Positions 5,661 to 22,390 of a stretch of DNA of 64,000 nucleotides are shown one piece after another; position 1 is the first letter of the stretch; each line of letters starts with the position of its first letter. The position numbers were made by a program, and so were the translations under genes. Below the pieces are notes generated by a model. It saw only the letters and a program-made list of their open reading frames with translations, did no database searches and was not told the DNA's origin. This DNA is from Escallonia rubra (lineage: Eukaryota > Streptophyta > Magnoliopsida > Escalloniales > Escalloniaceae). The stretch spans positions 1 through 64,000 of the forward strand of contig JAVXUO010001657.1 in the NCBI GenBank assembly GCA_033065855.1. The letters run 5' to 3'.

Positions 5661-6122
5661 GGCCCAGCCCGGGCCCAGTGGGCCAAAAGAGAAAAAGGGC
5701 CGGGGCCGGGTCAGATTAATGGGGTATCTAGGCCCAGTCCAAGCCCTGGCCCTAGGCCCTATATTTAGGGCCGGGCCCGGGCCCTATCCTTTTTTTAAAA
5801 AAAATTTCTTGTTATTCAAATTAAATACTTTAATTGACATAATTTCTTGTCATTATGTAAGCAAATTATAATTTAATAATTAGTGTATATATATTACCAC
5901 ATAAATGTGTATACAAGCAAATAAAACAACTAAAAATTCCTAGGCACGCACACATATATGTAGTAATATGTGTGTATACAATAAATATTTATAGCATTCA
6001 AATATTCAATCAACTGATGGAGTTAAATTGAAGATAAATTTATTCATAGGCCCTCCTCCTTTTATCCGGGCTTGGGACCGGCTGCTTGTAAACAAACAGG
6101 CGAAGTTACCTATTTTTTATTA

Positions 6123-6157
6123 TATATATGAAAAAATATCTATCTTGCTTGTAAAAT

Positions 6158-6249
<92 letters not shown>

Positions 6250-6366
6250 AAAATATATTGCTTGTAAAATATGAAAAATATCTATCTTGCTTGTGAAAAC
6301 CTATTCGATATATATATATATATCGAATAGGTTTTTACAAGCAAGATATATATTTTTTCATATATA
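6123..6366 (+). repeat. (TA)n tract with tandem and inverted copies of a short hAT sequence
   Basis: A (TA)n run occupies 6159-6245. The words TATCTTGCTTGTAAAA occur before it (about 6140), after it (6255-6295, two copies) and in inverted form at about 6331-6350. The last pair makes a long inverted repeat, 6281-6316 against 6317-6350, with TCGATATATA at the centre. This lies immediately left of the foldback insertion. Confidence 0.75.
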
Positions 6367-6388
6367 TAGATATATATATATATATATA

Positions 6389-8154
6389 GGGGGCCGATCC
6401 CCAGAAATAACTTTTCTCCACCCAACCGCTCCTCTTACAAGCGGTTGGGTAACATTTTGTTTTTTGAGAATGCAGTGGGGCCCGCCGTTCGTTTTCCAAC
6501 CGCTCCTCTTATAAGCGGTTGGGTAACGATTTTTTTTTTTTTTGAGAATGCAGAGGGGGCCCGCAAAAATCCCCAATTGCCGTACAAAAATCCCCCAACC
6601 GCTCCTCTTATAAGCGGTTGGGTAACAATTTTTTTTTTTTGAGAATGCAGTGGGCCCCGCAAAAAAACAAAAATCCTCCAACCGCTCCTCTTATAAGCGG
6701 TTGGGTAACATTTTTTTTTGAGAATGAAGTGGGGCCCTTGAAAAAAAATCCCCCAACCGCATATAAGAGGAGCGGTTGGGGGGGAGAGATTGACGCGAGA
6801 AGGGAGAAAATGGGGAAGGGAGAAAAGGGGGGAGAAAATGGAGAAAATGGGGAGAAAAGGGGGGAGGGGAGAAAATGAAAGACCAACCGCATATCCTACA
6901 TGCGGTTGGCATTGATGCCATGGCCCCCCACCTCCCTTGCCCCCCACCCCCGTGGCCCCCACCTTCCGTGAGTGTCCTTCTTCTTTTTTCTTTCCTTTTT
7001 CTTTCTTTCTTCTTTCCTTTCTTTTTCTTTGCTTTTTCTTTCCCCCCTTGCCCCCCACCCGTGGCCCCCCTCCCTATCTCACCTACATACAAACAAAAAA
7101 AATTTACGCCAGAAGATCGGTGGATAACCGCTAAAAGATCGGTGAATTTTTTGCATAAATATATCAAGTTAAAACAAGTAAGTATTTTTCAATTTGTTCT
7201 TACCAATTGATTGTTTAAATTGTGTTACGCTTAAATTGTTCTTACCACAGTATAATATTTGTGTTTAGGGCGTCAAAATTACGTTTTTACAAATCGGGGT
7301 ATTACACTCGAAAGATTCCACAATAGCGAATTTTTAGGGCGTTAAAATGACAATTTTTTCACGAATTTATAAAAAATAGCTAGAGCATGATTTTGCCAAA
7401 GTGCAAAAAAGAGACCCTAGATATTTTCAAAAGATCTGTATCAGGTAAAAATTTCATATTTTTCCAAAGACTGTAAAGGGGCTAACTGATACGGGAAACC
7501 GTGTACCTTCGCAGTCTAATTTAAAATACCAAGCTAGCGCGATTTCGCGCGAAACTTTTACGAGAATCCTAGGATGTTGGGAAGTTCCATTCCCCAAGAT
7601 TTTGCGCCATTCCGGAGCCATTAGCTATTTTTTTGGCCGAACGGCCCTTTAAGCGCTCGATCCGGACACCGGTTCGCGATTTTTGCCCCAAAGATCCGTA
7701 AAATACTTTTTAGATCAAGGATGAACTCAGGAAGCGTAAAATAGCATGTCGAGGCACTTTTGAGATTTTTCCTGATGCCAGGGGCATTTTGGTAATTTGC
7801 CACCCTGCGAGGGGTGTTTTGGTAATTTTCCCGCGCCAAGTTTTCCGAACGACTTTTTAGTCCAGAAATGTAATTACAAAACCTGAAATGTCGTTTTGAA
7901 GCTGGTTCGGGGGCGTTGGGGTGATAGTGAACCCCCAGGGGCATTTCGGTAATTTGCCGCTCATCGGGGGCTATTTTGCTAGGAAGGATCCAGATTAAAG
8001 GGCCATACCTTAAAATAACTTTTAGTTCAGGAAAGGGTGTGAGACACCCGAAAACTTATTTTGTTCCGGATGGTCTGAACCTTGTGACGCACCGGATATG
8101 ACTGCCAGGGGGTATTTTGCATAAGTAGCGGGTGTTTTGGTAACTTTTCCCATT
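6389..8154 (+). repeat. Left inverted arm of the foldback element
   Basis: Outer domain 6389-6910: palindromic units spaced by poly-T and GAGAATGCAGTGGGGCCC words. Middle 6780-7080: GGGGAGAAAATGG purine runs, then a CTTTCTTTT pyrimidine run. Inner 7080-8154: AT-rich, with repeated GGGGCATTTTGGTAATTTGC words at 7780-7830 and 7940-7960 and a related one at 8105-8145. From about 7330 it aligns by eye with the chromovirus LTRs at 62.4-62.9 kb (same strand) and 53.3-53.95 kb (opposite strand). Confidence 0.9.
6421..6909 (+). repeat. Array of six palindromes in the left arm
   Basis: Each unit has an 8-bp stem, CCAACCGC with GCGGTTGG, around an 11-nt loop. Units lie at 6421-6449 (one extra base pair each side), 6496-6522, 6595-6621, 6678-6704, 6753-6779 and 6883-6909. 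Loops of units 1-4 read TCCTCTTATAA or close; unit 5 carries that segment inverted (ATATAAGAGGA); unit 6 has a different loop (ATATCCTACAT). Spacing is about 74-130 bases. They could be binding sites or DNA/RNA hairpins. Confidence 0.9.
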
Positions 8155-8325
8155 TAAAATTTTTCCTGATATATTTGGTATATAATTGACGTAATTCATT
8201 TGAGAACTTGACTTTAACGCGGTTTTGAGGTCTTGGGGGTGTAGGGGCCATCGGGGGGTATATTGCTATATAACCACGTTGGCGCTAAATTCAGTGAGAA
8301 CTAGCGTAATTAAGCGTTCGACACG

Positions 8326-10087
8326 ACGATTGCCTTATATCCGCTCTAGTTGAACGATGGAGGAGCGAGACGAACTCATTTCACTTCCGGTTTGGTGAAA
8401 TGACTGTTACGTTAGAGGACGTCGGATATATACTTGGAATCCCATGTCACGGCAGACCCGTTACTCTGAGCGTGCCGTCTGCATCCGTAGCGAATATGGC
8501 TAGGCATTATTTTTCGGGAATTCCAAGGGCAGCACTTACAACAAACGGCGTCAAGATTAAATGGCTGAGAGAGGAGTAGGGGGAGCTACCGGATGAATAC
8601 ACTCGTCATGATTTCGTGACGTATACGCAGGCATACCTTCTGTATATTATTGGAGCCATATTACTTCCGACGCATTCGAAAAACACGGTGCATCCGAAGT
8701 ATATGGTGTTATTGGAGGATCTTGACGAGGTATACTCGTATTCGTGGGGTTCAGCTGTCCTTGCGCACCTATATCGAGCACTGCATAAGGCTACGAGAAA
8801 CGGTGCCAAGTCCATTGCCGCCTGCCTGACTTTATTACAGGTATGAGCATTTATTTTCTTGGTAGGATCCTTAGTCAATATATTCGGGATTAATTACTAA
8901 TTCCATATAATGTTTGCATTCACAGGTTTGGTCTTACGAGAGGCTACCCACGGGTCGTCCACAACCGTTGGTAGATTCCGATGAGACGTGGCCTAGGGTG
9001 TGGGCCTGGGGGCCTCCGACCAACCGGATGAGGAGACGGGTAGACCCTCACAACCATCTACAGTTCTATCGGGGGGAACTAGAGATACTGGATGCATCCC
9101 AGGTGACGTGGCAGCCATATGACAAGGTGATGCATCTGTTGGATGAGTTGTGTTGGCAACTTCCGGTGTTGAATCAATATGGCAGGTTTGGTTCGGGTGC
9201 CGCTCATTCACTTCGAAGAATGTGAGTTTTAGATGCCCGATCGAGCTATGAAGCAAGCTGGCTGTCCACAAGGGATTCCGAAACCCGCTGTAGACATGCA
9301 GCCATACAGGGGTGGTCGAGGGCCGAACTTCGAGGTGGCTAATGCCTTGACTGTGTTGGGTGACGAGGTGCAACAGTGGAATACCTGACAGGAAACGTAT
9401 GACAGCCTTGTATCGCTGAAGCACGACGGCATCAGTACTGAGGACTACTTACAGTGGTTTCTCAGGGTGACGCGCACGAGGGTGAATCGCCCTTCCCAGG
9501 TGAAGGAGACATCGTATGCGCCACGTGAGGTCTATGACCAGTTCTGGGCATTGGCCCTTGTAAGTCATGCTAGTGTTGTTTGATAATTTATTTGCGCACC
9601 TTATCGACCATGCCTGAAATGATTAGCCATATTTTCTATGCATGTTTTTTAGGTTGACCAGGCCACTGACGTGTTCAAGCAGCTGGAGTCGTTTGACTGG
9701 TTTGTCGCGCAGGCTCCTGACAATCTCAAGAGGTCCATTGAGAGGTACAAGACTGAAGTTCAAAACTTTAGTCTTGCGTATCGGGGTTACCAAGGGGAGC
9801 CGTCTAGTCACCCTCCTCCTGACGCGTACGACTATCAGCCCCAGAGTCAGGTGTGGGAGCCGTCTAGTCGCCCTCCTCCTGACGCGTACGACTACCGAAC
9901 TTCGAGTCAGGTGTGGGAGCCGTCTAGCGTGCCTCCTCCTGACGCGTACGACTATCAGCCCCAGAGTCAGGTGTCGGAGCCGTCTAGTCGCCCTCCTCCT
10001 GACGCGCCTCAATCCTATAGCTATGAATTCTGCGTGGCTAGCTGCCGTGACGTTACAAAAAACTGTACCAAAAAGAAATGTACATAA
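8326..10087 (+). pseudogene. Plant mobile domain (PMD, MAIN-like) gene, three exons, broken
   Basis: Exon 1 (8326-8840) translates to a typical PMD start: ALVERWRSETNSFHFRFGEM, then TVTLEDVGYILGIPCHGRPV. Intron 8841-8925 (GT..AG, phase 0) leads to exon 2 with VWAWGPP, WQPYDKV, VPLIHFEECEF, MPDRAMKQAG and the QFWALA motif; intron 9560-9652 (phase 0) leads to an exon ending in a proline-rich repeat tail. PMD proteins such as Arabidopsis MAIN/MAIL1 are nuclear factors linked to silencing and meristem maintenance, and PMD genes are widespread in plant transposons. The frame has about three in-frame stops and one frameshift in exons 1-2, so it is not functional as it stands. No clear start codon or promoter was found. 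It fills the core between the inverted arms. Confidence 0.85.
9797..10010 (+). repeat. 60-bp in-frame tandem repeat in the PMD tail
   Basis: Three full units and a partial one encode EPSSxPPPDAYDYxxxSQVW (20 residues). Units begin at 9797, 9857, 9917 and 9977. The third base and neighbouring positions vary little, so the expansion looks recent relative to the stops in the upstream exons. Confidence 0.9.
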
Positions 10088-10089
10088 TT

Positions 10090-10630
10090 TTTTGCATGCT
10101 AGGAATTTGGCGCTAAAATGTGCGCGAATATACAGTTCATATGACGCATTCAGAAAAATTACGCGTCTCGCTTTTTCACAGAAATTCATAGAAATGGGCT
10201 AACTAGCGTGCATGAGGTGCAATGAGAGAGAAAAAATTGACAAAAAAAATTATAACTTTTTTTCGCAAGTTAAGAATTGGGCCCTAAAGTGTGCCCGAAT
10301 AAGCCCTTCATAGGAAAACCCAAAAAATAACGTGTCTCGTTTTTTGCCGAAATACATAAGAATGGGCTAACTAGCGTGCCTCATGTGCGATGAGCGAAAA
10401 AAAAGTGACAAAAAAATTACAAGATTTTTCGAACGTTATGAATTGGCCCCTAAAGTGTGCCCGAATAGGCCCTTCGTAAGAAAACCCAAAAAATAACGTG
10501 TCTCGTTTTTCGCCGAAATACATAAGAATGGGCTAACTAGCGTGCCTCATGTGCGATGAGCGAAAAAAAAGTGACAAAAAAAATTACAAGATTTTTCGAA
10601 CGTTATGAATTGGCCCCTAAAGTGTGCCCG
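10090..10630 (+). repeat. ~167-bp tandem repeat between the PMD gene and the right arm
   Basis: GGGCTAACTAGCGTGC recurs at about 10196, 10363 and 10531, with ATTGGCCCCTAAAGTGTGCC and AACGTGTCTCGTTTTT blocks between. Units two and three are almost identical; the first is more diverged. No open frame of interest. Confidence 0.85.
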
Positions 10631-12383
10631 AATGGGGAAAGTTACCAAAACACCCGCTACTTATGCAAAATACCCCTGGCAGTCATATCCGGTGCGTCAC
10701 AAGGTTCAGACCATCCGGAACAAAATAAGTTTTCGGGTGTCTCACACCCTTTCCTGAACTAAAAGTTATTTTAAGGTATGGCCCTTTAATCTGGATCCTT
10801 CCTAGCAAAATAGCCCCCGATGAGCGGCAAATTACCGAAATGCCCCTGGGGGTTCACTATCACCCCAACGCCCCCGAACCAGCTTCAAAACGACATTTCA
10901 GGTTTTGTAATTACATTTCTGGACTAAAAAGTCGTTCGGAAAACTTGGCGCGGGAAAATTACCAAAACACCCCTCGCAGGGTGGCAAATTACCAAAATGC
11001 CCCTGGCATCAGGAAAAATCTCAAAAGTGCCTCGACATGCTATTTTACGCTTCCTGAGTTCATCCTTGATCTAAAAAGTATTTTACGGATCTTTGGGGCA
11101 AAAATCGCGAACCGGTGTCCGGATCGAGCGCTTAAAGGGCCGTTCGGCCAAAAAAATAGCTAACGGCTCCGGAATGGCGCGAAATCTTGGGGAATGGAAC
11201 TTCCCAACATCCTAGGATTCTCGTAAAAGTTTCGCGCGAAATCGCGCTAGCTTGGTATTTTAAATTAGACTGCGAAGGTACACGGTTTCCCGTATCAGTT
11301 AGCCCCTTTACAGTCTTTGGAAAAATATGAAATTTTTACCTGATACAGATCTTTTGAAAATATCTAGGGTCTCTTTTTTGCACTTTGGCAAAATCATGCT
11401 CTAGCTATTTTTTATAAATTCGTGAAAAAATTGTCATTTTAACGCCCTAAAAATTCGCTATTGTGGAATCTTTCGAGTGTAATACCCCGATTTGTAAAAA
11501 CGTAATTTTGACGCCCTAAACACAAATATTATACTGTGGTAAGAACAATTTAAGCGTAACACAATTTAAACAATCAATTGGTAAGAACAAATTGAAAAAT
11601 ACTTACTTGTTTTAACTTGATATATTTATGCAAAAAATTCACCGATCTTTTAGCGGTTATCCACCGATCTTCTGGCGTAAATTTTTTTTGTTTGTATGTA
11701 GGTGAGATAGGGAGGGGGGCAACGGTGGGGGGGCAAGGGGGGAAAGAAAAAGCAAAGAAAAAGAAAGGAAAGAAGAAAGAAAGAAAAAGGAAAGAAAAAA
11801 GAAGAAGGACACTCACGGAAGGTGGGGGCCACGGGGGTGGGGGGCAAGGGGTGTGGGGGGCCATGGCATCAACGCCAACCGCATGTAGGATATGCGGTTG
11901 GTCTTTCATTTTCTCCCCATTTTCTCCATTTTCTCCCCAATTTCTCCCCCATTTTCTCCCTTCCCCATTTCTCCCTTCTCAAGTCAACCGCATATAAGAG
12001 GAGCGGTTGGGGGATTTTTTTTCAAGGGCCCCACTTCATTCTCAAAAAAAAATGTTACCCAACCGCTTATAAGAGGAGCGGTTGGAGGATTTTTGTTTTT
12101 TTGCGGGGCCCACTGCATTCTCAAAAAAAAAAAATTTGTTACCCAACCGCTTATAAGAGGAGCGGTTGGGGGATTTTTGTACGGCAATTGGGGATTTTTG
12201 CGGGCCCCCTCTGCATTCTCAAAAAAAAAAAATCGTTACCCAACCGCTTATAAGAGGAGCGGTTGGAAAACGAACGGCGGGCCCCACTGCATTCTCAAAA
12301 AACAAAATGTTACCCAACCGCTTGTAAGAGGAGCGGTTGGGTGGAGAAAAGTTATTTCTCCACCGGTGGGTGGGGATCGGCCC

Positions 12384-12385
<2 letters not shown>
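10631..12385 (-). repeat. Right inverted arm of the foldback element
   Basis: Inverted copy of 6389-8154. The 324-bp segments 7621-7944 and 10840-11163 give identical translations in matching orientation, so the inner arms are essentially identical. Differences gather in the outer half: the right terminus has about 13 extra bases (CACCCACCGGTGG) after GATCCC, and the purine-rich middle is shorter. The arm stops inside the LTR-like segment, which continues past 8154 only on the left. Confidence 0.9.
11875..12340 (-). repeat. Array of six palindromes in the right arm
   Basis: Mirror of the left array: units at 11875-11901, 11984-12010, 12059-12085, 12143-12169, 12240-12266 and 12314-12340. The unit at 11984-12010 is the counterpart of 6753-6779, but its loop is in the opposite orientation relative to the arm, so the loops are reverse complements instead of matching. 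Confidence 0.9.
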
Positions 12386-12433
<48 letters not shown>

Positions 12434-12484: not shown

Positions 12485-14467
12485 CTAATCATCTGCAAGT
12501 ATTTCAACGTCCGAGTCACTGCTCTTTCTATCATCAATCGATTTATCTTGCGCGCGATATTTCGCGTCAAGATAATACTTCCAACATACACATAGCTCGA
12601 GCGACTCGGGTTTAAGCCGGCTCCTCCTGTCATCCAAAATTCTCCCGCTCGCTGAAAATGCCGACTCTGAAGCAACCGTGGAGGCTTGCACCGGCAGTAC
12701 ATCCCGTGCAATTTGGGCTAAAGTTCTATACTTGTTTTGATTTTGTTTCCAAAAACCTAACAAATTAAAATCAACCTGTTCTTGCATCGATAAATTAGCA
12801 TAATGATTAGAATTGGAATATAAACCAATCTCATTAAAAGAGGAAAAAGTAGACGAACTTGCCGTATTAGAAGTATTTTCACCTGGTGGTTGTCTTGCTA
12901 CTAGATGTTCGAGGCCCTTAAGGTATGGTGCATAATACATCTCACCAGTCGATGATGAAACTCGTCCGCGCACGTCAGCGAAACTATTATAGAGGTTGAA
13001 CAGATCCTCAAATTTCTTGCTCACTTTCGTTGTGAGTGTAGTTGTGTCCTCTTGTGTGTAGTTCATTAGTCTTGCAATCTCTTGTATCGAAACATTCACG
13101 CCATGCAACTTTAACCTAGGATCTAAACAAGTAGCCACAACAAAAATAACAGGCAATTTCTTCCAATATTTATTAAATTTTTTATCCATCTCTTCTACTA
13201 TTTGTTGAAAGGGTCATATATATCTCCATTTTGTTAACATTGTAGCCATCTTGAGGATTTCTATTATAGCGATAGGAGAGGTGGGATAGTACGTACCAGA
13301 CAATAAGTTGGTAGACGTGTAAAATACCTCCAAAAATTCAGATAGGTATGTAGCCATCTGCCATTCCTCCTGAGTTGGCAAGCCGGCTGGGAACGAGGTT
13401 AGTAGATAATGCGTATAGACTTCTTTGTATGCCAGAATATGTAAAAGCATATGGTATGTAGAGTTCCACCTGTGGGCTACATCTGTAAGTGGTCTCCTGT
13501 GAGGCATATTGTAATGAACACACAACGTTTTAAAGTGTTGTGTTCTCGGACCTGAACTATTAACATACGTTGTCATACCCCTCATTTTGAGAAGAATATC
13601 TCTTGCAGCAGCTAAACCATCTTGAACAATTAAATTAATAACGTGACAAACACAGCGAACATGAAATAATTCACCATTAAGTACAGGTTGAAGCGTGTCC
13701 TTTAAAGCTGCAACATCAGCTTTATTATTAGAAGCATTATCAAAACTAACACTCATAATCTTATTCTTTATTTTAAATGTGGTACATGCATTAATTATAA
13801 TACTAGCTACATTATTTGCATCATGAGGAAAAGGAAATAGTTCGAATGCGATGATTCTTTTGTTCATAACCCAATCAACACCAATCCAATGGGCCGTCAC
13901 ACAAGCATAACTAACAAAAGTAAACGGAGATTGTCAAATATCAGAAGTATGACTAACTCTACCGTCAAAATGATCGAAATAGTCAATCAAGCGTGCTTTA
14001 GCAGCATAATACTGCCGGAGTGCATCGGATCTAGTGGTGTTTCGTGTAACCTTTTTGTACAAAGGTTGCACGTAGGTGTTCATATATCTAGAGTGCTTAG
14101 GATTATCGGCAAAACTAAAGGCTTGTTCATCATGAATAACAAATTCAGCGAGACCGTCTATTTGTTCTCGCTGATTATAAACAAATAACTTACCGTCAAA
14201 GGATAACTGCGTTTGGCTAGGTTCGACGTGGCCGCTTCGAGGTGCACACATAGGGTAATTCCTGTTAAGATGTCCATTACCAGAACTAGTGGTAAATAAT
14301 TTAGTACAGTACTTACATCGAGCTTTTCGGGCGCCGTCCACCGTAATTTCATCAAAATGATTCCAACACTCGGTTTTTTTTTTCACCTTTTGGACTTCTG
14401 GCTGACTATTGGAAGTATTGCTCGGCCCTTCTCCATCACGACTGCCCATCGGGTTAACATTATGCAA
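12485..14467 (-). pseudogene. hAT transposase (BED finger, RNase-H-like core, hAT dimerisation), broken
   Basis: One frame runs from the ATG at 14467 to the stop at 12485 (about 660 codons, usual for plant hAT transposases) but contains two in-frame TGA codons, at 13934-13936 and 13214-13216. Residues about 30-75 form a BED-type finger (CWNHF, CKYC, GHLNRNYPMC) in which the histidine before the last cysteine is replaced by asparagine. Residues about 240-255 hold the core motif SFDNASNN. Residues about 565-630 form the C-terminal dimerisation region (WKQNQNKY, IARDVL, ASESAFSASGRIL, LELCVCWKYYLDA). The enzyme would excise and insert the element in the nucleus. The TGA after SDI probably replaces TGG, since hAT proteins have Trp there. 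An upstream frame from 14754 may be leader or an extra exon. Confidence 0.93.
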
Positions 14468-15475
14468 CGGAGTAGTAGCTTCGCCAACCGAGCTGCGTCC
14501 TTGACTATAATGCGGGGGTCTTGTGAAGGCGTGTATTTAAAATCTGGAATATTTTGATTGAACTCCCAATTGGCTTGGGTATCTATCATACAACCTGTAC
14601 TCATTCGTCCATGAATGAATGGTTGTGGTGGTGCTTGGATTGGTGTTTGTGATGACCGTGGCGGTGGAGCTTGTGCTAGTGGTGGTGTTTGTGATGATGA
14701 TGATGTTTTTCGTGATGATGATCCACGCCTGAATTTCTTTAGTATTCCAGACATATTTGACGCTAAACTTTTTTACTAAATTGGAAAATAAAAATAGTAA
14801 TATTAAACTAAATGCAGGAATAAGAGCAGTAATTACTAATTAGAAATAACAATTAAAAAGAATTAAAGAGTAACTAACGAATAAGAGTAATTAGTAACTC
14901 AAAATTGGAGAAAGTTAGTAATTAAAAAGAATTTGGTAATAGTAATTAATAAATAAGAATGCGCTAATTACTAATTAGTAAACAAAAGAATTAGAGAGTA
15001 ACAAATTAATGAAAGAAGTATGTTAGTAATTAGAATATAGGAAAATTAGTAATTAGTAAACGAGAGTAGTAATTAGCAAGAGTACAAATTAGTGAGTAAT
15101 AATTAGCAAGAGTAGTAGTTGGAGAGGAAAATAGTAGCAAAACTTGTAAAAATGTAGAATGTTGAGATAAGAGAGAGTAAGAAGATTGGTGTGAAATATT
15201 AGAAAGAAAGGGTGTGAATTTATAGATTTTTTAACGTTCACAAAAGACCAAAATGCCCCTTAAAACTATCCGTTTATAGTTGTTGGGGAGGGTAAGAGTG
15301 TAAAAAACTTTAAAAGAGTTGAAAAAATTAAGTTGGACGAAAATACCCCCCAAACTAGCCGTTATATTGTTGTTGGGGGGTAAAAGTGGAATTTAGGGAA
15401 ATAATGGGGAATATGGTCGTTGAGGGAGGGGGGGGGGGGGAAAGGGGGGGAAAATCTGATTTGAAATTGATGAAA
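14468..15475 (-). other. 5' flank of the hAT transposase gene
   Basis: From 14755 leftwards to 15230 the DNA is AT-rich with repeated TAGTAATTAG words; 15240-15400 has two similar blocks (ACCAAAATGCCCCTTAAAACT and AAAATACCCCCCAAACTAGC) followed by T-rich stretches. This is the expected promoter/leader side of the transposase. A frame of 123 codons (14754-14383) overlaps the main one in another phase and is Ser/Pro-rich. Confidence 0.5.
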
Positions 15476-19091: not shown

Positions 19092-21215
19092 TCAAATTCT
19101 GTAAACTACATCTAAATGACTTGCATCGTCAACACAGAACTGCTTCCTCATGTTGCCATGAAACGAGTCAAGAATTCTCCACGTCACGGCATCGGGTGCC
19201 AGCCCATTCTTTCTCATTTCTCCCAATATCTGGTAGGCCTCTCTTTTTAAACTTAATTTGCAAGCACCGTTAATTAGGATATTATAATTAACAACATTTA
19301 GAGTTATGCCACAATCTACTAATTCATATAAAAAATCACACGCCTCGTTCAATTTGCCCCAGTGGCAAAACCCCTTTAGAAGGGCCGAATAGACGAAATT
19401 ATCATGAATCTTTGAGGGCCAAATAACATCACCCCAAAACCTCTTAGCTTCCTCTATGCGGCCAGACTTGCATAATCCTTCAACTAAAACAGCGTAAGTA
19501 GTACTGTCGGCAGTAACACCGCCACTAACCATGGCATCAAAAACTTTCACTGCTTTATTTGCCTGACCTAGTTCAAACAAACTGCAAAGGACTGCATTAT
19601 AGGTCACAACACCAGGGCAAAAACCATTTTGAGGCATTACATTGTGCAACATATCAAGAGCTTCTTCAGTTCTTCCGACATTCAACAAACCACGTATAAG
19701 TGTGGTGAATGTGACGCAATCTGGCGCACAAAACTTTCCTGTCCTCATATCGTGCAGTATCTTCAAAGGCTCTCCAATCCTCCCCACCTGGCAAAACCCA
19801 TGAATAACCGTGTTGAGTGTAATTACATCAGGCTGGCACCGGGTCTGAAGCATGAATACAAGCACATTTAGAAGCTCAGTTGGGTTCTTCAAAAGACAAA
19901 GAGCTCGTAAATAAATATTGTAAATTCTGGTGCTATCCACACCTCCCTTTTTCAACATGAACTGAAGAAGTTTGTTGGCCTTGCCGATATCACATTCTTG
20001 ACAAAGACGTTCAATCAAAACCTTGTACGTGAACTCCGAGGGCAAGTACCCAAACTTAATACCTTCTTCCAACAATTGATAAGCCCTCATACAAACCCGA
20101 TCCTTGCTAAGCCCATGTATGATTGAGTTGTATGAAACCAAGCTTGGCCGAAACCCTCTCTTTCTCATCATATACACAATTCTAGCCGCCCCATTGTACC
20201 TCGCGTATCTACATAGCGTATCTACCATCTCCCCGTAAGCAAATTCATCACAAACAGTCTTACTTTGAGGCATATATTCTGCAATCTCAAACACTTCACA
20301 AAACAACCCTTCTTGACACAAACAGTCAATGAGATTAGCAAAAGCTGCATTATTAGCAGTCGGGTCCTCTTCACCTTCCATTGTCTCCCAAAAATCCCCC
20401 ATTAACTCCCTCCCACGTTTAAAATCCTTGCTTCTGAGAACGCCTCTAATCAATACGCTGTAGGTGAACGAATTCGGCCTTACCCCATACTGGAGCATTT
20501 CATCAAGCACCTTATGCGCATAACCCACTTCACCAATTCTGACGTAACCATTAATCAGGGTAGTGTAGGAAACGGTGTTTGGCTGATGCCCTCTACTTTT
20601 CATGTCAATAAACAACTTATGCGCTTCATACGTGTGCGAAAGCAAACAAAGCTGATCGATTAAACGGTTATAATTAACCAACGAAGGTACAAATTCAGGT
20701 TTAACGGCGTTTAAACGGTGAAAAACCTGCAATGTCAGAATTGGGGTTTTCGAATGGAGGAGACGGGCAATGACGACATTGCAAGTGCGCTCATCAGGGA
20801 TGCAATTGGAAGCGAGGTAAAGGAGGAACCTGTGATGAGCTTCGGGGAAGCGCTTGGAGTGGCATAGAGCGTGGATAACACTGCTGACGTTGAGAGACTC
20901 GGGGCGGTAGCCATGGAGGCGGAGGCGGTCGAGGAGGCGGAGGGCTTGGTCGACGTTGCGGTCTACGGTGCAGAGTTTGTGTATCTTTTTGGTCCAGTAG
21001 GAACGGCTGGCTACGCTTATGCTCTCTTCTGGTACATCATTTGTGTGGGGTTGTTCTGAGTGAGATGCGATAGGGTGAGTGAAGAAGAGATGGAGCGACG
21101 TTGAAATTGTTTTGCAATGGATTGGAGGTTTTGATGAAGGGAGTGTTCTTAGGAACATTGTGTCTGCATTATTCCACGCAGTACTTCGGCGGGCAGAATC
21201 AAAGCCATACACCAC
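19092..21215 (-). CDS. P-class pentatricopeptide repeat protein, At3g18020-like
   Basis: A single intronless frame of 707 codons. From about residue 70 to 690 it consists of roughly 15-17 repeats of 35 residues with PPR signatures (VSYTTLINGYVRIGEVGYAH, NSFTYSVLIRG, DCVTFTTLIRGLLNVGRTEE, STTYAVLVEGLCKSGRIEEA). There is no E, DYW or PLS pattern, so it is P-class, a group that binds organellar RNA. Blocks IYNIYLRALC, DDVIWPS-like WGDVIWPSKIHD and KREAYQILGEMRKNG with PDAVTWRILD match my memory of Arabidopsis At3g18020. The first ATG is at 21215, but Met20 (21158) begins MFLRTLPSSKPP with an Arg/Ser-rich, acid-poor stretch like an organelle (probably mitochondrial) targeting peptide and is the likelier start. 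It is intact and the only clear host gene here; its RNA target cannot be read from the sequence. Confidence 0.95.
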   Translation of the reverse strand: MVYGFDSARRSTAWNNADTMFLRTLPSSKPPIHCKTISTSLHLFFTHPIASHSEQPHTNDVPEESISVASRSYWTKKIHKLCTVDRNVDQALRLLDRLRLHGYRPESLNVSSVIHALCHSKRFPEAHHRFLLYLASNCIPDERTCNVVIARLLHSKTPILTLQVFHRLNAVKPEFVPSLVNYNRLIDQLCLLSHTYEAHKLFIDMKSRGHQPNTVSYTTLINGYVRIGEVGYAHKVLDEMLQYGVRPNSFTYSVLIRGVLRSKDFKRGRELMGDFWETMEGEEDPTANNAAFANLIDCLCQEGLFCEVFEIAEYMPQSKTVCDEFAYGEMVDTLCRYARYNGAARIVYMMRKRGFRPSLVSYNSIIHGLSKDRVCMRAYQLLEEGIKFGYLPSEFTYKVLIERLCQECDIGKANKLLQFMLKKGGVDSTRIYNIYLRALCLLKNPTELLNVLVFMLQTRCQPDVITLNTVIHGFCQVGRIGEPLKILHDMRTGKFCAPDCVTFTTLIRGLLNVGRTEEALDMLHNVMPQNGFCPGVVTYNAVLCSLFELGQANKAVKVFDAMVSGGVTADSTTYAVLVEGLCKSGRIEEAKRFWGDVIWPSKIHDNFVYSALLKGFCHWGKLNEACDFLYELVDCGITLNVVNYNILINGACKLSLKREAYQILGEMRKNGLAPDAVTWRILDSFHGNMRKQFCVDDASHLDVVYRI

Positions 21216-22390
21216 TTCCTAAATTCCCCTTCTTTGGTTATACTAGTACAGACCGAGCACATGCGTAATTCACGTTGTTTTATTCGAGAGTAATGTTTGA
21301 AGTGATATTATTATATTTTTTATATAAAAATAATATAATTTAATTATGTTCTTATTTATTTTGTGACTTGTTATAAAAAAAATGTATATTTAATTTTCGC
21401 AATTATAATCAGTTTAATATTTAGAAATTTTCTTTGTAAACTTCTGGATTGAAAAATGTTTGATGGTACTGTTGAAAATAAAAGTAAATGAAGAAATTAG
21501 AAGAACAAATTTACGTCTTTCTTTTTGTAATATGTTGTTCATAGTTAAGATTTATAATTTTTAAGACCAGGTGCTTTTAAGAAATGCAAAGCACCTGGTC
21601 TTCAATTACAATAACTGAACATATTTTCAGTTCAAATTTGCATCATAATTAAACTTTGTTTTTTAATGCATATTTAACCCTTTTTCGAATTTTATTTTAT
21701 TTTTTTTGGTTTCCAACAATTTTTTGTTTCTTAATTTCACGCATTTCAGTTTCTTTATTTTGTTTTTGTTTTTCAGTTTTTCAATTGGTTAATCGTTTGC
21801 TAACCTAAAAATCCAAGAAAAAAAATCACAGTTTTCACTAACTAGTTCAATATCTAATGTTTATTTCATTTTAACCAAATTAAAAAGAGAATAATAAAGG
21901 AATTTATTTGTTATGTTTTTCTTTCTCATCACACTTTTTATTTTCTAATGTATAGAATAGATTCATTACCCAATGTTCTTTTAATTTCATCAAATTTTAA
22001 AAGGGAGTAATAAAAAAAGGGTAAGAATGTAATTGACGTAATTTACAGAGGACATAATTATTCAAAAATGATTTACAACATTCCTACTTTTGTTTCCCAA
22101 TGTATAAATGTGGGATTAAATTAAATTTATGACCTAATGTTCATTAAACACATTACAAAAAAAAATTAATTAGGGAAGGGTAGGGTTGTCATTGAAATAA
22201 CTAACGGAGGGCAAAACCGGAAATGATTATAAAATTAGTAATTAATAATAGTATTTATGAAATGGTAGGATTGTTATTTGAGTGATTAACGAAAGGCAAA
22301 AATAGAATAAAATAATTTACAAGATTCATACTTTTATAGGTAGTATAGATTGATTTTATTTGAGGGTCAAAAATTAATGTGAGGCACTAT
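21216..22390. other. Upstream flank of the PPR gene, AT-rich
   Basis: The promoter of the PPR gene must lie at its left side (21216 onward), but no convincing TATA box stands out. From 21840 to 22360 there are repeated words such as AATAATAAAGG, TAACGGAGGGCAAAA and TAACGAAAGGCAAAA, suggesting an old AT-rich repeat. No gene is visible. Confidence 0.45.
21563..21602. repeat. Perfect 14-bp inverted repeat with 12-nt loop
   Basis: AAGACCAGGTGCTT at 21563-21576 and its exact reverse complement at 21589-21602 flank TTAAGAAATGCA. It stands alone in AT-rich DNA about 350 bases upstream of the PPR start. Function unknown; it may be a tiny MITE remnant or a hairpin. Confidence 0.85.

Follow-up and report, generated by a model that had tools for sequence, protein, structure and literature searches.

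Background

MuTAnTs of Medicago truncatula are foldback Mutator-like transposons with distal GGGG, mostly located within (TA)n microsatellites and flanked by 9-nt duplications; according to the available part of the report, 90% of them measure 200-300 bp, and AutoMuTAnT, 4.9 kb long with a single ORF and a Jittery-like transposase, is their putative autonomous partner (PMC4486113). SaTar elements, found in guayule and rice, are non-autonomous and Mutator-like; in the sections available they are described as associated with TA microsatellites, where they are often arrayed with unrelated elements, and unoccupied TA tracts are reported at some homologous sites (PMC5907723). A Ulp1 protease gene, in either orientation relative to the transposase, is reported for Kaonashi elements (KI-MULEs) and for Jittery-like families of grapevine and melon (PMC2528002, PMC13317346, both in part), the Jittery-like MULEs with Ulp1 of the two latter species being known from the excerpts of one of these papers (PMC2528002). 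Plant mobile domains (PMDs) occur both in transposable elements and in the host genes MAIN and MAIL1 (PMC8616336, PMC7156037, in part); a Ty3/gypsy origin is presumed for them, and a review suggested, in its accessible portion, that PMDs encoded by transposable elements may counter silencing (PMC8616336). The accessible portions of the same two articles describe neither a foldback nor a MULE carrier of a PMD.

The window considered here is a whole stretch of 64,000 bp from Escallonia rubra (assembly GCA_033065855.1, contig JAVXUO010001657.1, positions 1 to 64,000), located on the contig designated C1952 among the 3222 contigs, 566 Mb in total, of the genome searched. Positions 6389-12385 of the window correspond to a real foldback element, composed of a left arm, a broken PMD core and a right arm. 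Judging from its sequence, it belongs, as a non-autonomous and MuTAnT-like element, to a foldback Mutator-like family which targets (TA)n and carries PMD and Ulp1 genes.

Foldback arms, a terminus with a run of G, (TA)n targets and a 9-bp duplication are traits that the family shares with MuTAnT by description (PMC4486113, in part). Unlike MuTAnT, the Escallonia family reaches 12-14 kb, contains PMD and Ulp1 genes and has arms made up of multiple units. Like SaTar, it consists of Mutator-like elements in TA microsatellites, with empty TA tracts at some homologous sites, but SaTar elements were mined as repeats of 250-800 bp (PMC5907723, in part). A Ulp1 C48 peptidase gene is found inside relatives of the window element, as in Kaonashi-type MULEs; KI-MULEs, however, are described in the available text as non-TIR, unlike the foldback family reported here (PMC2528002, PMC13317346). 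FARE of Arabidopsis, a foldback with long palindromic repeats classed among the MULEs, is again similar by description (cited in PMC4486113, available part). Long modular inverted repeats, as in the window element, are also typical of the foldback-like Tetris and Galileo of Drosophila, although their hosts are animals and Galileo belongs to the P superfamily; the arm repeats of Tetris are possibly homogenised (PMC4079207, PMC4168063, both in part).

The main text on MuTAnT makes no mention of PMD or ULP (PMC4486113), the main text on SaTar contains none of the terms 'foldback', 'ulp' and 'mobile domain' (PMC5907723), and neither of the two papers on MULEs with Ulp1 names PMD in its main text (PMC2528002, PMC13317346). 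Transposons combining foldback with PMD, foldback with Ulp1, or PMD with Ulp1 were not found in the open-access papers searched, whose accessible portions also describe no PMD in a Mutator-like context. What the Escallonia family adds to the (TA)n-targeting foldback MULEs is a cargo of PMD plus Ulp1.

Structure of the element

The coordinates of the element, of its parts and of its surroundings are reported in Table 1. Over the 1742 columns of their alignment, the inverted arms, of about 1.76 kb each, show 28 mismatches and 7 gap events, corresponding to 98.39% identity. Identity rises to 99.3% in the inner 1.29 kb (9 mismatches in 1288), and the longest exact run, from 7064 to 7602, covers 539 bp. 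The initial annotation had reported that 7621-7944 and 10840-11163 are identical over 324 bases, and this is exact (100% over 324 bp). The terminal sequence given in Table 1 is present at both ends of the element, adjoining (AT)n; 12 bp located just inside it are present in the right arm and missing from the left one. In the right outer arm, a hairpin loop at about 11985-12010 is inverted with respect to nine other aligned arm ends.

Table 1. Features of the foldback element and of its neighborhood, in window coordinates.
Feature	Position	Strand	Remarks
Left (AT)n target tract, AT-rich	6346..6388		Sequence; element-free (AT)n in paralogous hAT copies
Left (PMD-side) arm	6389..8154	+	Terminus GGGGGCCGATCCCC
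Inner arm segment found on both sides of the window element	8063..8154	+	
Core	8155-10630		Between left arm and right arm
Junction of ~361 bp deletion taking the PMD 5' part	8320..8321		
PMD (plant mobile domain) gene remnant	8321..9790	+	
Tandem array, units of ~166 bp	10057..10636	+	In relatives located beyond the Ulp1 gene
Junction of array and copied inner arm end	10621..10646	+	26-mer
Right arm	10631..12385	-	Inverted copy of left arm
Right (AT)n target tract	12386..12431		Sequence; paralogous hAT copies
hAT transposase remnants	12488..14536	-	Dimer_Tnp_hAT E 1.7e-22; hAT-like RNase-H E 2.2e-12

Sister copies and damage to the PMD gene

The same dead core was found at two other places, on C281 (L009) and C861 (L010), and a rearranged version of it on C2115 (L011). 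The flanks differ among the copies. Two further copies, on C1487 and C970, consist of one arm each, followed by the end of the contig. In a tree of 61 arm units, from which no support values were read, the arms of the window copy, C281, C861 and C2115 form one group in which left and right arms are mixed, so that arms do not simply cluster by element. The copy on C2115 (25917-33050) is of the same founder type; its PMD fragment is inverted relative to the arms and their neighbors, and it contains the tandem array twice, in opposite orientations.

In the window, the Pfam PMD model matches the ORF at 8911-9222 with an E value of 1.9e-8 and a score of 34.3 bits, slightly below the family cut-off of 34.9, while an upstream ORF is matched in C281 (E 9e-46) and C861 (E 3.2e-47). 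Alignment to relatives revealed two in-frame stops, TAG at 8577-8579 and TGA at 9386-9388, one frameshift-making change within a cluster near 9170-9183, and the loss of about 361 bp of the 5' part at 8320/8321; the Ulp1 part is missing from the window copy, as evaluated by alignment and by mapping of its pieces against relatives. The initial picture of near-identical arms around a decayed PMD gene is confirmed, except that it had counted about three stops.

The distribution of the defects was evaluated by exact-match search over 77 loci, which include the places of the sister copies a second time, as L001-L008. The window copy, C281, C861 and C2115 all have exact matches to the junction of the 5' deletion and to the frameshift cluster. 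The context of the TGA is exact in the window copy, C281 and C861, the gene piece of C2115 stopping at this point, and the TAG is private to the window copy among the seven sequences aligned. Since deletion and frameshift are common to the sister copies, the PMD gene was dead before they separated, and all but one of the defects found predate the copies.

Origin of the right arm

Pieces of the element were mapped on 21 loci, by using matches of at least 80 bases at E 1e-10. The segment 8063-8154 lies on both sides in all four founder-type copies, i.e. the window copy, C281, C861 and C2115. Nine relatives have sides which can be distinguished by the PMD or by a long Ulp1 piece: the segment lies on the PMD side in six of them (C2190, C1712, C1389, C3006, C1235, C469) and on the far side in none. 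Only the neighboring stretch, 7982-8062, is found in C2581, C984 and C233, on the far side. The segment is on neither side in C2794, C1266, C332 and C911; only one side is seen in C28 and C2033, and C1487 and C970 break off before the segment is reached. A genome search with the 26-mer spanning the junction between array and arm, AGTGTGCCCGAATGGGGAAAGTTACC, allowing up to two mismatches, returned exactly four places, for a control of zero.

A PMD-side segment located on both sides, together with a single junction, indicates that the right arm derives from the left one by copying. It is well supported by these sequence comparisons that the copying took place in a common founder, most simply once, and this is the reason why the arms match. 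The initial annotation had suggested, as one possibility, a copying of the left arm onto the right after the death of the gene; the copying is borne out by segment and junction, but it is assigned to the founder and not to the window copy. The direction of arm copying, with the PMD side replacing the far side, can thus be read from a side-specific segment and a shared junction. Three letters, AAT, are common to array and arm at the junction, as judged by eye, which suggests joining by microhomology.

Divergence of arms and core

Copies having the same core differ within it at 15 of 2475 positions (0.61%, window and C861), 14 of 2475 (0.57%, C281 and C861) and 26 of 2476 (1.05%, window and C281). 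The left and right inner arms of a single element differ at 9 of 1288 positions in the window (0.70%), 4 of 1289 in C281 (0.31%), 26 of 1285 in C861 (2.02%) and 14 of 1264 in C2115 (1.11%). The window copy, C281 and C861 have, taken together, 25 private substitutions in six arms (about 7.7 kb) versus 26 in three cores (about 7.4 kb), where arms were judged against eight sequences and cores against three, and columns with gaps or three bases were excluded. Private changes are unevenly distributed between copies (core versus arms: 13 versus 3 in the window, 12 versus 3 in C281, 1 versus 19 in C861), so the equality of arms and core is a sum over copies.

Mean arm distance is 1.01% between left and right arms within elements and 1.01% between elements (difference -0.13 to 0.09, 300 site bootstraps); when C2115 is included, the means are 1.04 within and 1.13 between (-0.27 to 0.04). 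The window arms are 5.0-7.1% distant from six relatives and the window core 2.8-5.2% from three, the two sets of relatives being partly different; the arms are therefore not slow.

These comparisons indicate that since the founder the arms are not younger than the core, both having diverged about equally. The initial annotation had held arms and core to be of unlike age, naming arm divergence in step with core decay as the observation that would speak against it. A difference in age is not supported by the values found, which are alike, with 0.57-1.05% in the core of same-core copies and 0.31-2.02% between the arms of one element.

Proposed history

The history which very probably explains these data places both the arm copying and a dead PMD gene in a founder, which later spread, its arms and core ageing equally. 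The starting point would be a larger (TA)n-targeting foldback MULE containing PMD, Ulp1 and, in some elements, SWIM-bearing transposase-like remnants. In the founder, the internal repeat array may have been linked, through aberrant repair or replication, to a second, inverted version of the PMD-side arm, and this copied arm would have replaced the far side and the far arm, thus generating two identical arms. The PMD gene was already frameshifted and deprived of its 5' part in the common ancestor of the four copies; arm copying and PMD death would both precede the split of the copies, in either order. The dead element would then have spread into (AT)n tracts, including the one adjacent to the hAT, presumably by means of a transposase provided from elsewhere, and afterwards mutations would have accumulated about equally fast in arms and core, the arms occasionally exchanging sequence with each other. 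The apparent paradox of well preserved arms around a decayed core is resolved by a founder which already carried the dead PMD gene. Arm identity may easily mislead on the age of a foldback, for which sister copies, rather than intact relatives, are the right yardstick.

The initial annotation had favored arms kept alike by gene conversion or hairpin-templated repair, i.e. continually homogenised within each element, and hence young around a decaying core. As a general explanation this is rather doubtful, because arms are no closer within than between elements and are not less diverged than the core, but single sites do suggest exchange, when their polarity is set by using relatives. At positions 7567 and 8073, the window copy, C281 and C861 carry the derived base on both arms, and C2115 keeps the ancestral one on both; C2115 in turn has a derived base at 7657 on each of its arms. 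The left arm of the window copy and the right arm of C861 share the derived state at 7603 and 7620, the former also present in one relative, C2033. Position 7892 is ambiguous: the two arms of C861 agree there with most relatives, and the window copy, C281, C2115 and C1389 share another base. In addition, eight pairs of sites fail the four-gamete test, and the 12-bp terminal deletion affects the left arm in the window copy but the right arm in C281. Polarised sites are few and lend modest support; recurrent mutation or separate copying events could account for some of them. A few later transfers between arms are nevertheless likely.

The opposite sides of the 12-bp deletion, relative to the same core, could also result from flipping of the core by inversion between the arms, which would have swapped whole arms instead of conversion tracts, and the inverted PMD fragment of C2115 is in line with it. 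A purine tract near 6810-6870 and site 8148, however, pair the left arm of the window copy with the left arm of C861, and since these variants keep their side, a simple whole-arm flip does not fit all sites and is unlikely. A palindrome created by the assembly, through an arm collapsed or mirrored, was considered because, for the C1487 and C970 copies, the contig stops within an arm, which indicates that this region is hard to assemble. It was rejected as extremely improbable, given that the arms differ by 28 mismatches and 7 gap events, that one junction is present on four contigs and that the flanks vary from copy to copy. The founder history set out above remains the preferred reading.

Clusters of private changes

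Tight clusters of private substitutions, mostly absent from relatives, were observed in the left arm of C861 (corresponding to window positions 7514-7554 and 7851-7948), in the left arm of C2115 (window positions 7782-7805) and in the window copy itself, at 8196-8218 and 8534-8582. Comparison with 10000 random draws gave counts of 0 for the window core, 3 for the C861 left arm and 1195, not significant, for the C281 core. Relatives were also evaluated as donors, by aligning 13 other copies or relatives beside the eight arms: among 15 private sites of the C861 left arm, only 7403 and 7851 match any of them, so that conversion from the aligned relatives is not the main source of these changes. 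The clusters may represent either mutation showers left by error-prone repair or consensus errors.

A more speculative scenario, which we advance only tentatively, is that new foldbacks of this family are born by error-prone break repair in one step, in which an arm is copied over the other and the far (transposase) side is deleted, leaving tight mutation clusters, and that repair linked to later transposition keeps exchanging arm sequence. If so, the history of arm re-copying could be read from the four founder-type copies.

Relatives and termini

A genome-wide search for other elements with the same terminus, proposed in the initial annotation, was productive: allowing two mismatches at most, it gave 596 places for the terminal 26-mer and none for the control with the reversed pattern. 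Ten pairs of ends were chosen among the places listed; nine lie inside (AT)n, and are uninformative for target duplication. A perfect 9-bp target site duplication, AATAAATAA, was found for the tenth, the element on C194, and one matching at 8 of 9 positions for that on C984; this length agrees with the 9-11 bp typical of MULEs.

Foldback arms and the G-run terminus recur in the family, and in the larger relatives the arms are made of units of about 597 bp. Peptidase_C48 (Ulp1) was detected in the relatives L026 (E 1.1e-18), L027 (E 7.9e-20) and L022 (E 5.6e-16). Inside the element at C2190:12056-24276, which is bounded by both ends, lie a PMD, a Ulp1 gene (Peptidase_C48, E 1.1e-18) and an open frame with SWIM, which starts inside the arm repeat. 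SWIM is the only Pfam match (E 1.2e-7) in L026:1976-3298, a putative transposase fragment, and a complete transposase was not detected in the relatives compared. We take the SWIM open frame to resemble the C-terminal part of a transposase of the FAR1/Jittery type; a search of solved structures with the transposase fragment produced two matches, at chance level.

The hAT neighbor and the (AT)n tract

The flanking hAT is split over several ORFs. In addition to the domains reported in Table 1, a BED finger scores 20.4 bits, slightly below the cut-off of 20.6, and the middle ORF has no Pfam match. The insertion site is an (AT)n tract lying outside the last hAT open frame, past its end. The element had been described as nested in a broken hAT: the hAT is indeed broken, but the element lies beside its last open frame, in an (AT)n tract that belongs to the hAT.

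At least 39 further matches to the flanking hAT are present across the genome. Twenty paralogues (L058-L077) were compared, 14 of which match the left flank of the element in the window over 118-623 bp, with no foldback end in the 621 bases covered. Since (AT)n is present without the element in hAT paralogues, the tract most likely predates the insertion. Two of the 20 have foldback-type sequence at the homologous place, a foldback terminus on C1226 and a similar end, judged by eye, on C940; in a further hAT copy, on C28, this place is occupied by a foldback from a different subfamily. In four of the 20 paralogues (C1789, C116, C2570, C25) another repeat ends near GGATCAGCTC. From these comparisons, the (AT)n tract beside the hAT is most likely a repeated landing place.

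A small palindrome around (AT)n, at 6113-6370 of the window (TTGCTTGTAAAAACCTATTCGATAT...), is located in the hAT flank and is also found in other hAT copies, among them L058 and L067. Farther along the window, an open frame of 708 aa at 19092-21218, on the minus strand, presumably encodes a pentatricopeptide-repeat protein.
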